A DNA stretch of 64,000 nucleotides from Clytia hemisphaerica (lineage: Eukaryota > Cnidaria > Hydrozoa > Leptothecata > Clytiidae), in assembly GCA_902728285.1 (NCBI GenBank), contig CACVBU010001197.1, positions 9,140-73,139 on the forward strand, written 5' to 3'. Below the pieces are notes generated by a model that was not told the origin of the DNA, ran no database searches, and saw only the letters and a list, made by a program, of their open reading frames with translations. The translations under genes were made by a program, and so were the position numbers. Shown in pieces: positions 8,795-63,873 of the stretch (its first letter is position 1; every line of letters starts with the position of its first letter).

Positions 8795-9168
8795 GGGGGC
8801 TATCCATAGCTGTCAACTTCGCCTCACAAAAATGCGGGAGAGCTCCAAGTCGGAAAAATTTTCCCCGATAATCCGATTTTTCAAAATCGGAAAATCGGAA
8901 AATCGGGGAAATTTTCTCGTAAAATCCGATTTTATTGGAAATTTTTTTTCGGGAAATTGGGGAATTTTTCGTTCCGATCTTTCAAAATCCAGAAATTTCG
9001 CCATTTGGTTTTTCCAAAATCGGAAAATTTTTGGAAATGCGGGAGATGCGGGAGAAAATCCCAAAAATGCGGGAGATTTGGCAGAATTTTCTTCACGCGG
9101 GAGAAATCGTTGACATGCGGGAGTCTCCCGCTCAATGCGGGAGAGTTGACAGCTATGGATACCCCCCC
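8795..9168. mobile_element. Inverted-repeat element with iterated ATGCGGGAGA
   Basis: TATCCATAGCTGTCAACT at 8801 faces its complement at ~9143-9161, outside which are G/C runs. Inside, (A)ATGCGGGAGA recurs about seven times (8832, then 9036-9143), and CGGAAAATY motifs fill 8850-9030. Overlapping ORFs here are shadows of this low-complexity DNA. Confidence 0.6.
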
Positions 9169-62200: not shown

Positions 62201-63873
62201 TTGAATAAGCAGTGTGTTAGGAAAAAAGCCGAAAAGATGAAAGTGTCCTAATAACCTTTGAGACCAAAGGGAGGTGCGGGAAGAAGAAACTTTTGTGAAG
62301 TCGTGTGGGAAGCAACCGACAAAGGCGAACAGAAGATTATTTCATTCTAGGTATGAGGGGACGCCCTTCAGAGATGCTTAGGCATTTGCTTTCTTAGCAC
62401 TTTTTACTTGTATAGATTTTTACTAAAATTCAAATCCTTCCATTAACATGTTGATTTCAAAACTACAAGAAAAACAATAGACACCTCAATATTTTAACTT
62501 TTTTCTTGAGGGGGTAAAAACTTTTTTGGAGCTAGGGTAAAGAAAATCGAGATGGGATAGAAAATTTTGATTCTAGATATGGGGGGGGGGCCTACGGGGT
62601 TTGCAATTTCCGAAATACCGGATAATTTTGCCAAAATTTCCGAAATTTCGTAAAAAATACTTGCAATTCCGATACTGATTTTTTGGGTATTTTTCCTCGT
62701 TTCGACTAATTTTTCATCAAATTTGATTTTTAGGTATGAATTCCGAAAAAGGAGGATAAAAACGTTATAATACCATAATTTCGAAGCAAAAATTCTTGAA
62801 TTTCCGATACCGAAGCAATTTCAGAATTCCGAAATACCGATTGAATTTTGTCCGATTTCCAAAATTCCGAAGGAAAAAGAGTCGATTTCTGCAATTCCGA
62901 AATACTATACGCCCTGTTCTAGATACCGGGGGACTTGACCTTTTGGAACTGGAATTCATAAAAAAAAGAAAGTACTATAATATTGATATTGATTCACCGT
63001 TCTCTACTTTCACACTAAAACTAGCCAGGATTGATTGATTGATTCCCACTCAGTGCTACGATTTATTGGCATGCACCCTTACTCAGGTGTTAACTCATAC
63101 CATGTGAGGATACGGGAGAATTTGGTACCACGCAACACTCTGGTATAAGAGAACAGGGAGGTATGCCAGACATTGTATTTGAGGGTAGTGAAGTTGCTCA
63201 CATGAAAAAGCAATAGCAAGATTGAGTGATACGCCGATACGCCATGAACATAGGGTCGCCGGTGTCTGATAAGCGCTATGATTTTCTCATCTAAGAAAAA
63301 GTAACTATTCCAGGATAGGGCCTTTACTGTCTGCTTCGTCAGGATCATCATTTCTCCTTTCAATCACTTATTTTAAAAATCTTGGAAAATAAATATCTTT
63401 TGACTGAGCAATGAAATACTCTCCCATTACAATAAATTTTAATTGTAGTAAGATCGACTTTTGAGGACTTTACTTTCATTTAATGTTCCAAATTTTTTCC
63501 TAACACACTGTATAATGGCACATTCCTCTTGATGAGGCAATTTCTTTGCGAGTCTGTCTGGAACTAGTTATTTTCAAATACTTTGTGAACTTAATTCAGA
63601 TTATTCTTTAGCATGGTGTGATCAGTAATGAAGACAAAAGTATAGATATTCACAAAATTCAAAATCCCAAGGAATCTAGGCACATTTTTGCAAACATTGG
63701 CTTCCTTTGGGCGAATCAGAATGCTGACTCAAACTCAAGAAATTGAAAAAAGAAAGCAATTCAAATCAAATTTAAATTTGTTACCTAGCAACATCCATTG
63801 AAGCTGCACCTGCTTTAAAGAAATCTGTATCATCTTCAATTGATCCCAAGTTCAAGATTCCTTTCCAGATATC
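47174..63873 (-). CDS. ALDH1L: 10-formyltetrahydrofolate dehydrogenase (ALDH1L), 5'-partial, 19 exons
   Basis: Cytosolic or mitochondrial ALDH1L enzymes oxidise 10-formyl-THF to THF and CO2 with NADP+. Nineteen minus-strand exons, listed separately, join in one frame of 1716 nt (571 residues plus stop). All 18 introns are GT-AG and every phase matches. Residues 1-52 are the end of the carrier-protein-like linker, with the phosphopantetheine serine at S25 in GAASMDVAR. Residues ~90-571 are a full aldehyde dehydrogenase domain: PWNYP (N243), K266, general base E342 in LELGGK, and nucleophile C376 in [11 protein letters not shown]. The E-to-C spacing of 34 equals that of rat FDH (E673/C707). The gene ends in VEY-stop as family members do. 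About 330 N-terminal residues (formyltransferase-like hydrolase domain) should lie past base 64000. Introns are loaded with mobile elements, but no coding break is seen. The paralogue (L1 or L2) cannot be decided without the N-terminus. Confidence 0.96.
47359..47735. mobile_element. Tc1-like MITE in last ALDH1L intron
   Basis: TA-CAATCATGGACAAAAGGTTT ... AACCTTTTGTCCATGATTG-TA. A related single end is near 31170-31196. Confidence 0.7.
48796..49479. mobile_element. piggyBac-like MITE, TTAA-flanked
   Basis: TTAA-CCCTTAGCCCACGCGG ... GAGTCAAAGGG-TTAA. Internal perfect palindromes GGACGCACATGTGCGTCC and GACGCGTATACGCGTC near the left end. Confidence 0.7.
49552..49767. mobile_element. TA-flanked MITE with iterated GCGCGAAAAT
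   Basis: TA-CCTTAATTCCATTAATTTTC ... GAAAGTTAATGGAATTAAGG-TA. GCGCGAAAA/GCGCGAA occurs six times inside. Confidence 0.65.
50719..50836 (-). CDS. ALDH1L: ALDH1L exon r
   Basis: [20 protein letters not shown] then [19 protein letters not shown]; the C-terminal signature [11 protein letters not shown]. Donor gtagg. The next exon is 3.5 kb away. Confidence 0.96.
50937..50990 (+). mobile_element. hAT-like element end fragment
   Basis: GTTGGGTCTAAAAAAGCAGG then GTAGCCAATGGAGCTAGG match the ends of the copies at 19353 and 28533. No opposite end was found nearby. Confidence 0.5.
51341..51422 (-). CDS. ALDH1L: ALDH1L exon q
   Basis: [20 protein letters not shown] then FTNDLSK, the ALDH [16 protein letters not shown] element. 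Donor gtaaag. Confidence 0.95.
51805..51910 (-). CDS. ALDH1L: ALDH1L exon p (EESFGP motif)
   Basis: [20 protein letters not shown] then [13 protein letters not shown]. FxEPxxFTDV and EESFGPV are canonical C-terminal ALDH motifs. Donor gtaag. Confidence 0.95.
52324..52415 (-). CDS. ALDH1L: ALDH1L exon o
   Basis: [20 protein letters not shown] then [10 protein letters not shown]; the usual Y-I-x-x-G-x-x-EGA-x-L-x-x-GG stretch. Donor gtattt. Confidence 0.93.
52565..52638 (-). CDS. ALDH1L: ALDH1L exon n
   Basis: [20 protein letters not shown] then PQNH and a split Arg codon; the conserved K-x-GDPLD-x-x-T-x-x-GPQ segment. Donor gtacac. Confidence 0.94.
52676..53048 (-). mobile_element. R1 repeat element, short copy
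   Basis: ACAAGTGATACTTTTATGGA at the left; right end GACCTTCAGGTAGGTC. Middle shares AAAAATCGGGCTCCGTCACA and the AGACGAACGGACGAAC tract with the other copies. Confidence 0.65.
53245..55859 (-). mobile_element. R1 repeat element, tandem form, in ALDH1L intron
   Basis: Left end ACAAGTGATACTTTGATGGA, right end CCACCGGGGTAGGTCC followed by A-run. Four head-to-tail units of ~0.45-0.51 kb; the same GAGTAATTTGACTAAGAAC start recurs at 54461, 54957 and 55465, and the first (53471) is split by the 53486-54023 insertion. ORF-like [19 protein letters not shown] repeats belong to this DNA and have no known function. Confidence 0.7.
53486..54023. mobile_element. TA-flanked MITE with iterated AATAAACGTACAG, nested in R1
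   Basis: CTCTCGGGTGCCTAATAAAC ... GTTTATTAGGCACCCGAGAG between TA at 53484-53485 and 54024-54025. AATAAACGTACAG or variants occur about eleven times. Sister R1 units read straight through as TTTGACTAAGAACAT, giving the empty site. Confidence 0.8.
56316..56414 (-). CDS. ALDH1L: ALDH1L exon m (catalytic Cys)
   Basis: Encodes [20 protein letters not shown] then [14 protein letters not shown]376 in NKGENC is the nucleophile. The 3.7-kb intron that follows holds the R1 tandem repeat. Confidence 0.96.
56823..56922 (-). CDS. ALDH1L: ALDH1L exon l (catalytic Glu)
   Basis: Encodes [20 protein letters not shown] then KAVKQ. E342 in LELGGKSP is the general base of the ALDH mechanism. Phase 0 at donor gtaaga. 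Confidence 0.96.
57669..57762 (-). CDS. ALDH1L: ALDH1L exon k (FTGST motif)
   Basis: Encodes [20 protein letters not shown] then [15 protein letters not shown] is the coenzyme-binding turn. The usual next residue, Glu of GSTEVG, is Pro here (residue 322). Confidence 0.94.
58224..58311 (-). CDS. ALDH1L: ALDH1L exon j
   Basis: [20 protein letters not shown] then [10 protein letters not shown], the family's T-x-L-x-x-A-E-L and GxxNxVPG signature. Donor gtaac. Confidence 0.95.
58613..58718 (-). CDS. ALDH1L: ALDH1L exon i (PWNYP and NADP-binding Lys)
   Basis: Encodes [15 protein letters not shown], which holds the oxyanion Asn (N243), and [13 protein letters not shown], which holds coenzyme-contacting K266. 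Donor gtatgg. Confidence 0.96.
59047..59117 (-). CDS. ALDH1L: ALDH1L exon h
   Basis: [20 protein letters not shown] then EPI and a split Gly codon. This is the strand that leads into the PWNYP motif. Donor gtaagt. Confidence 0.93.
59449..60099. mobile_element. pogo/Tigger-like element in ALDH1L intron
   Basis: Begins CAGTGAAACCTCTAATCAGC after TA and ends CTAATCAGAGGTTTTACTG (right TA mutated to CA). Same family as 5816-5998, with about 400 bp extra in the centre. The 66-codon ORF inside is unassigned. Lies between ALDH1L exons g and h. Confidence 0.7.
60205..60355 (-). CDS. ALDH1L: ALDH1L exon g
   Basis: Fifty codons, including [18 protein letters not shown] and [10 protein letters not shown], both highly typical of ALDH1L dehydrogenase domains. 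Phase 0 at donor gtgaa. Confidence 0.96.
60644..60708 (-). CDS. ALDH1L: ALDH1L exon f
   Basis: [20 protein letters not shown] then Y and a split Lys codon; the conserved W-x-x-M-x-x-R-x-R segment of ALDHs. Donor gtaagt. Confidence 0.94.
60980..61042 (-). CDS. ALDH1L: ALDH1L exon e
   Basis: Twenty-one codons, [20 protein letters not shown] then K. This is the ALDH helix region preceding the W-x-x-M segment. Donor gtgag. Confidence 0.93.
61317..61436 (-). CDS. ALDH1L: ALDH1L exon d (start of ALDH domain)
   Basis: Forty codons in phase 0. Contains [16 protein letters not shown] and TINPTDES, the usual start of the aldehyde dehydrogenase fold (FINGEFV, NP-T). Confidence 0.95.
61733..61805 (-). 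CDS. ALDH1L: ALDH1L exon c
   Basis: Encodes [15 protein letters not shown] then GEEEFKCDY, the hinge between linker and dehydrogenase domain. Phase 0 at the donor gtaagt. Confidence 0.92.
62029..62097 (-). CDS. ALDH1L: ALDH1L exon b
   Basis: Completes the Arg codon split by the previous intron. Encodes [20 protein letters not shown], the end of the linker's helical domain. Ends with two bases of an Asp codon before gtaag. Confidence 0.92.
62588..62914. mobile_element. Candidate inverted-repeat element with iterated AATTCCGAAATACCG
   Basis: GGGCCTACGGGGTTTGCAAT and the complement of GGGCGTATAGTATTTCGGAA bracket about ten TTCCGAAAT/TTCCGATACCG motifs. End match is weak. Confidence 0.4.
63785..63873 (-). 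CDS. ALDH1L: ALDH1L exon a (carrier-protein-like linker)
   Basis: Acceptor ag at 63875-63874, donor gt at 63784-63783. It encodes [10 protein letters not shown] then [14 protein letters not shown], the phosphopantetheine-attachment motif of the ACP-like linker (S25 of the partial protein). It is the most 5' exon visible. Confidence 0.93.

Follow-up and report, generated by a model that had tools for sequence, protein, structure and literature searches.

Reiterated private motifs in short inverted-repeat transposons of Clytia hemisphaerica as predicted transposase sites

A stretch of 64,000 nucleotides from the hydrozoan Clytia hemisphaerica (GenBank assembly GCA_902728285.1, contig CACVBU010001197.1, positions 9,140 to 73,139; hereafter the window, lying within contig C827) carries ten short elements that a previous sequence-only reading had listed as unrelated inverted-repeat elements, each reiterating a private motif of its own. 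We read these elements with their flanks and repeats and searched the 417-Mb genome, in 951 contigs, for further copies. We favour, with a probability of roughly 0.7, a model in which the listed families are non-autonomous DNA transposons and the reiterated motif of each is the predicted site of its own transposase, repeated in the subterminal region.

Inverted-repeat elements of the window and their genomic families

The ten elements are named here by their start positions. Several carry a terminal inverted repeat (TIR) and a target-site duplication (TSD), and four of them form one group, the clan, on account of a common tip, core motif and spacing. The features, none of which is assigned a strand, are as follows.

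8805..9157: family of miniature inverted-repeat transposable elements (MITEs) with TIR CATAGCTGTCAACT, a 6-bp TSD and GCGGGAGA seven times in the family consensus
21185..21500: probable MITE with an A[AT]T TSD; GGAAAATCC four times
22983..23202: 18-bp inverted repeat with no dominant reiterated motif, not counted in the design
29936..30266: clan MITE with a TA TSD; tip CCTTAAA followed by 16-bp units (AATTTGGCGGG); high copy number
32062..32454: clan member judged by its anatomy, with tip CTTTATT and TTAAATTTCGC units spaced by about 16 bp
39012..39468: clan MITE with a TA TSD; CCGTRAATTTTCTAATTTAACGCGTA; 17-bp units
42917..43179: MITE with an A[AT]T TSD; TIR GGGCTCTTCCA; TCCGGGGG four times and T[CT]CGGGGG six times; Pangu/PHIS-like
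49552..49767: clan MITE with a TA TSD; GCGCGAAAATTAAAGG units, oriented alike at the two ends
53486..54023: MITE with a TA TSD; perfect 25-bp TIR; AATAAACGTACAG, nine exact copies in the family consensus
62588..62914: rich in TTCCGAA (six copies), no supported TIR, not counted among the members

Terminal inverted repeats and reiterated motifs were present at most of these coordinates, with two exceptions: in the window copy of 22983 the word counts showed an 8-mer present three times but nothing longer that was conspicuous, and repeat analysis reported no terminal inverted repeat for 62588. The limits of the first element are about 8805 to 9157, so that the 8795 to 9168 given previously overran it. 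Six of the ten (8805, 29936, 39012, 42917, 49552 and 53486) are dispersed transposon families as judged from genome-wide copies, and being short, non-coding, bounded by inverted repeats and TSDs, and present in many dispersed copies, they are MITEs; 21185 and 32062 probably follow the same design, judging by the anatomy of the window copy. The description of these families as unrelated holds insofar as there are at least three kinds of TSD, namely TA (29936, 39012, 49552, 53486 and probably 32062), A[AT]T (42917 and probably 21185) and 6 bp (8805), but four are members of a single clan.

The copy figures that follow refer to the best 40 copies scored, window copy included, whereas the candidate totals of the first look serve as crude copy numbers. 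The best 40 of 1738 candidates for 42917 were 89-94% identical, those of 1716 for 29936 were 91-95% identical, and those of 291 for 53486 were 94-98% identical; for 8805 (best 40 of 311) the other copies were 92-98% identical, and for 39012 (best 40 of 121) and 49552 (best 40 of 118) the copies were matched in pieces. Twenty copies each were fetched for 29936, 39012, 49552 and 53486, as were 20 loci plus L002 for 8805 and the flanks of six copies for 42917. TA stood on both sides of 19/20 copies of 53486, of 17/20 copies of 29936 (two of which, L085 and L088, have common flanks) and of 12/20 copies of 49552. The window copy of 49552 is an internal-deletion variant of a family of about 340 nt, whose consensus leaves out three of the 20 loci for an extracted length outside 150-600 nt, a further observation being that six of the 20 are without a recognisable 5' end. 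TA also flanked 14/20 copies of 39012, but these comprise only three distinct flank sets, one of which is shared by 11 of the 20 (within L043-L062) in identical or nearly identical form and another by two; the 11 copies thus ride in a larger repeat. Some 39012 copies hold differing extra stretches in their centre. One 1650-nt relative, L043, was considered as an autonomous copy and rejected, and because it has no internal frame of at least 100 aa and other copies have different extra stretches at that place, it is read as the product of nested insertions.

For 8805, both ends were located at 20 loci, of which 11 have a 6-bp TSD with at most one mismatch, one of the 21 loci (L022) being unscored as its 3' end was not found; the length filter of the copy comparison removed none of the loci. 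The TSD of 42917 was ATT or AAT in 6/6 sampled copies and AAA/AAA at the window copy. The window copy of 21185 has AAT on both sides of GGGC...GCCC, and that of 32062 has TA on the left and AT on the right. Adjoining 8805 is a fold-back structure, a long inverted repeat at 8079-8554 of the window whose arms match between the outer positions 8079/8554 and the inner positions 8253/8379. Beside an 8805-family copy lie fragments of an rva_4-type integrase core (Pfam PF24764), at L004:1145-1588 and 3670-4215; they were rejected as a partner of 8805, having no ends in common with it.

Motif persistence and the spacing of the clan

The commonest 8-mer of each element was compared with 200 dinucleotide shuffles and with 300 random window segments. 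In each of the ten elements its count was higher than in the shuffles (p 0.005 for nine of them and 0.02 for 62588), which bears out the expectation that motif density is above that of shuffled elements of equal composition; since this was so for all ten, this test alone cannot tell good cases from poor ones. Against the random window segments, a background that includes microsatellites and other elements, p was only 0.017-0.083, as might be expected if the excess were a matter of chance or composition. That explanation is nevertheless close to negligible, as the genomic copies retain their motifs and the motif count of 11 in 53486 compares with a shuffle maximum of 4, and full reading of the copies refutes it for four families.

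In these four families the motif is retained in other genomic copies, as the sequence-only reading had required. Every one of the 20 fetched copies of 53486 has AATAAACG 8-11 times, and every one of the 20 copies of 29936 has TTTGGCGG 6-11 times; GCGCGAA occurs 1-9 times in 20/20 loci of 49552, and ACGCGT 1-7 times in 19/20 copies of 39012, with 0-1 outside the copies. In addition, a scan of 262 kb for TA-flanked inverted repeats, made independently of the original list, gave a motif excess (p<=0.05) in 8/35 candidates (binomial p 3e-4), three of the eight being listed elements, and in 5/26 candidates outside the window. The 20 ten-kb loci of the scan had originally been fetched for 8805 copies, and it is thus unbiased for other families only. 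A TA-flanked element outside the clan, at L017:2927-3298, has AAATGTTA eight times, that is, the same design with another motif.

The units of the arrays differ in what they conserve. Among five 53-bp units of 53486, column agreement was 0.94 in the motif vs 0.59 in the spacer (random 0.52), and among five 42-bp units of 29936 it was 0.91 vs 0.79. Slippage or tandem duplication of end units could build such arrays without selection on site number, and this would suit part of 29936, where the spacers are alike too, as well as the window copy of 39012, in which two neighbouring 17-bp units are exact duplicates. It does not suit 53486, where the spacers are near random and the motif almost invariant, nor the transposase-encoding element with a 580-aa frame described below, which has both site orientations at each end, nor the fact that the spacing is common to several families. 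We therefore regard slippage as an improbable general cause.

The clan comprises the four listed elements 29936, 32062, 39012 and 49552 together with three families outside the window, represented by L015:4135-4645, L021:8317-8674 and, as a single family, L011:3406-4260 and L007:2734-3033, and hence eight elements in seven families. When aligned, their ends begin with CC or CT followed by [TG]T, and a 7-nt tip is followed by units of about 16 bp whose core is mostly AATTTnGCG (AATTTAACGCG in 39012), while the motif differs per family. In 29936, unit pairs 16 bp apart recur every 40-42 bp. With 49552 represented by its fuller copy L040 and a nested stretch removed from L011, exact 6-mers recurred at lags of 15-17 (peak 16) in 8/8 clan elements (rotation null p=5e-5) and at lags of 41-43 (peak 42) in 7/8 (p=0.004). 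The interest of this 16/42 rule is that the spacing stayed while the motif changed. The word ATTTnGCG occurs 85 times in 262 kb vs 32 expected from base composition, with 12 of the 85 falling in a foldback-like element at L006. The element 53486 is unlike the clan in tip and spacing, its direct motif pairs being 18 bp apart and recurring every 53 bp.

The foldback-like element (L006:1631-3485) has 194-nt inverted arms made of 20-bp tandem units such as CACTATCTTTCATTTCGCGA. It lends some substance to the notion that the arrays serve silencing, chromatin or end-pairing, through a foldback-like structure or the binding of heterochromatin proteins, rather than transposase loading. However, the units of 49552, 29936 and 53486 mostly have the same orientation at both ends, by which fold-back pairing is not favoured, and we consider such a role very unlikely.

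Transposase-encoding elements with arrayed ends

A search of the genome with the PF03184 profile gave 77 matches, ten of which had identical scores, and seven of these ten had a frame of 509 aa. Copies on contigs C652 and C112, 99.45% alike over 2909 nt, delimit an element of 2905 nt with TA on both sides in both copies and a perfect 24-nt inverted repeat, CCGTAATTTCTCTAATTTAATACG. Its 509-aa frame matches DDE_1 (E 1.9e-25) and HTH_Tnp_Tc5 (1.5e-9), and among PDB sequences only the CENP-B DNA-binding domain (1hlv, E 0.0094) matches it at E<=1; it is on profile matches that the frame is assigned to the pogo/Tigger type. The tip of this element agrees with 39012 at 20/24 positions of the 3' end and 19/24 of the 5' end, and a 12-nt block, AATAATTATTTT, stands at position 33 in both the 5' end of the 2905-nt element and the 3' end of 39012. 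In addition, the 8-mer CTCTAATT occurs six times in the element, always at most 162 nt from an end, and at the 3' end repeats 17 bp further inward. Thus, the proposed search for autonomous partners yielded for 39012, and for 39012 only, a relative encoding DDE_1 with a CENP-B/Tc5-type helix-turn-helix; 29936, 49552 and 32062 have the clan anatomy in common with 39012, with no DDE_1 partner located.

A second DDE_1 element is present on C462 (580-aa frame) and C200 (558-aa frame), with the terminal sequence TAGTCATCTG + GGGGTAATAACGGGAC and with TA before TAGTC at all three ends read, where the resulting TATA leaves the duplication ambiguous. The C462 copy measures about 4.03 kb, and a private 16-bp motif, GTCCCGTATTTACCCC, occurs in it 12 times (<=3 mismatches), six per end, all within about 470 nt of the ends and none in the roughly 2 kb of flanks read, with 0.01 expected by shuffling. 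The terminal repeat contains this motif, three same-strand gaps measure 53 bp, and each end contains sites on both strands. A third DDE_1 family, C664/C881 (373-aa frame), is known from two copies 99.8% alike over 3 kb whose ends are not delimited. Among DDE_1 families, arrays at the ends are therefore beyond doubt and dense in C462, looser and 39012-like in the 2905-nt element, and a weak hint in C664/C881.

The DDE_1 loci L107, L109, L110 and L111, whose own ends were not seen in the fetched DNA, are uninformative on arrays either way. L111 (C823) was considered as a partner of the L015 family and rejected, as its array belongs to an adjacent MITE, of which it forms the end, and not to the end of the DDE_1 element. 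Other transposase frames recur as well: on contigs C625, C248, C254, C61, C491 and C907, DDE_3 (Tc1/mariner-type) frames recur on one strand, mostly every ~4.0-4.4 kb, with a regularity as if whole transposons lay in tandem arrays. A DnaJ-domain protein and a fibrinogen-C protein are encoded at further loci that were fetched, in keeping with an animal genome.

Predicted transposase sites, known systems and significance

Two readings had been offered for the reiterated motif, a transposase or host-factor site whose number is selected, and slippage. The transposase site is the best supported, by the transposase-encoding elements whose ends combine a tip with an array and by the constancy of the motif in 53486. 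For the largest clan, we propose that the terminal repeat consists of a 7-nt tip beside the cut site and then a unit of about 16-17 bp, which would be bound by the bipartite CENP-B-like helix-turn-helix domain of a pogo/Tigger-type (DDE_1) transposase. A CENP-B-type bipartite helix-turn-helix covers about 17 bp, which matches the unit length. Extra subterminal units, often in direct pairs 16-18 bp apart, follow every ~42 or ~53 bp, about 4 or 5 helical turns; with the spacing so near to whole turns, bound transposase would occupy a single face of the helix and load cooperatively. Additional units near the ends would load more transposase, and each family would retain the spacing but have a motif variant of its own, fitted to its transposase. 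The families, their TSDs, the persistence and common spacing of the motifs and the arrayed ends of transposase-encoding elements are observations, whereas binding of the motif by the transposase, a higher chance of mobilisation through arrays and the co-evolution of motif and protein are inferences. By analogy, the same principle may apply to 42917 and 21185, with their Pangu-like TSD, and to 8805, with its 6-bp TSD.

Several observations count against this interpretation. Among the eight scan hits, three (L009 and a pair in L018) probably represent tandem arrays; a further hit, 8803, belongs to the 6-bp-TSD family. The motif columns of 53486 were less diverged between genomic copies (0.0126 vs 0.0255, shift p 0.033), but here a seed-based choice of hits could have favoured intact motifs, and those of 29936 (p 0.59 and 0.27 under two motif definitions) and of 8805 (p 0.13) were not significantly less diverged; lower divergence of motif columns, significant only in 53486, was therefore rejected as a sign of selection. 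In the comparison that had been suggested as a check, rough motif counts of six families showed no correlation with crude copy numbers (Spearman rho 0.0). The spacing was spotted by eye before being tested, the 42-bp lag is missing from 39012 and the 16-bp lag from 53486, and the common 16/42 spacing may be inherited from one ancestor. The block common to the 2905-nt element and 39012 is short and AT-rich. The outer 400+400 nt of that element hold three exact 15-nt motifs and one degenerate copy with four mismatches, where 0.63 are expected, and its centre holds one degenerate copy, also with four mismatches; with so few copies near the ends and one central, its array is looser than those of the MITEs. 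C664/C881 has only five and four GGTCCGTTTTTACCCC sites at up to four mismatches, at least one of them probably due to chance. Finally, no autonomous partner was found for 29936, 49552, 53486 or 8805, nor for 42917, for which no search aimed at a PHIS transposase was made.

The motifs could instead be host-factor sites, for instance for E2F/DP, that recruit the element to replicating or open chromatin and are amplified by MITEs. The exact E2F-site consensus is TTSSCGSSAA; 29936 has four palindromic sites of this form and 49552 has four TTTSSCGC sites, and 7/10 TTSSCGSSAA sites in 262 kb lie within 29936-family copies. Amplification of E2F sites by MITEs has been described for Brassicaceae (Henaff et al. 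2014, as told in PMC12595863), a likeness in that those MITEs also multiply a motif, although only 29936 and 49552 fit it. The consensus is reiterated only in these two, with 0-1 match in each of the 14 other elements tested, among them 8805, 42917, 53486 and the clan elements 32062, 39012, L015, L021, L007 and L011. Since the motif lies inside the terminal repeat and changes by family, a transposase fits better than one host factor, and host-factor recruitment is an unlikely explanation for the elements as a whole, with E2F rejected as a common factor because its sites fit two families only. The 29936 family may also dominate the E2F-like sites of the genome.

One of the nearest known systems is that of pogo/Tigger transposons, given the TA TSD in copies of 29936, 49552, 53486 and 39012 and in both 2.9-kb copies, and the DDE_1 and HTH_Tnp_Tc5 frame of the latter with its match to the CENP-B DNA-binding domain (1hlv). 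The CENP-B box is 17 bp long. A 16-17-bp unit placed in the terminal repeat resembles the situation in Tigger-like elements, for which a CENP-B box is reported within the 5' TIR (PMC7325037). The elements described here differ in having several subterminal units at fixed spacing; the word "subterminal" is absent from the main text of that pogo survey (PMC7325037).

Arrays of this kind have counterparts elsewhere. En/Spm and Ac of maize, which belong to other superfamilies and to plants, have arrays of short sites for transposase proteins near both ends. Galileo of Drosophila (P superfamily) resembles our elements in its internally repetitive ends with secondary transposase sites (PMC3573991), but it is of another superfamily and has tandem repeats of about 210 bp in long TIRs as against 16-bp phased units in MITEs of 200-540 nt. 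According to Marzo et al. 2013, tandem repeats in TIRs or subterminal regions have been proposed to contain secondary transposase sites, and multiple sites look like the outcome of convergence among transposon superfamilies and could be under positive selection (PMC3573991). The multiple-site idea is therefore already in print for other superfamilies, and to call the motif density striking as a novelty was an overstatement. Pangu, of the PIF/Harbinger-related PHIS group, is described as having a 5'-ANT-3' TSD and a TIR usually starting with AG or GG (PMC4482050); 42917, known here from its ends alone, is like it in its A[AT]T TSD (6/6 copies) and GG-starting ends, and 21185 in the AAT of its one window copy. 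ISL2EU, with an AT duplication and a GG start (PMC4482050), was rejected for 29936 and 49552, which have TA and CC-starting ends.

A pogo-type clan with conserved spacing appears to be new within the open-licence literature, where absence is weak evidence. Beyond the assignment of motifs to transposases, we tentatively suggest, as a possibility rather less likely than not to hold, that the clan and its relatives represent a radiation of pogo-type transposons with a fixed geometry (16-bp units in a 42/53-bp register) in which the site sequence turns over with the transposase. If so, each family would be an orthogonal pair of enzyme and array. CENP-B itself seems to be descended from a pogo-like transposase, and its box is also found in centromeric satellite DNA (PMC7325037); under such a radiation, the arrays would be the transposon counterparts of CENP-B-box satellites and a route for a CENP-B-like protein to repeated DNA.

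Together with the private motifs that they carry, phased arrays in the ends of pogo-type elements would allow direct tests of the co-evolution of enzyme and array, and such elements would also bear on why some MITEs out-multiply others and on how transposase sites could seed satellite-like DNA.

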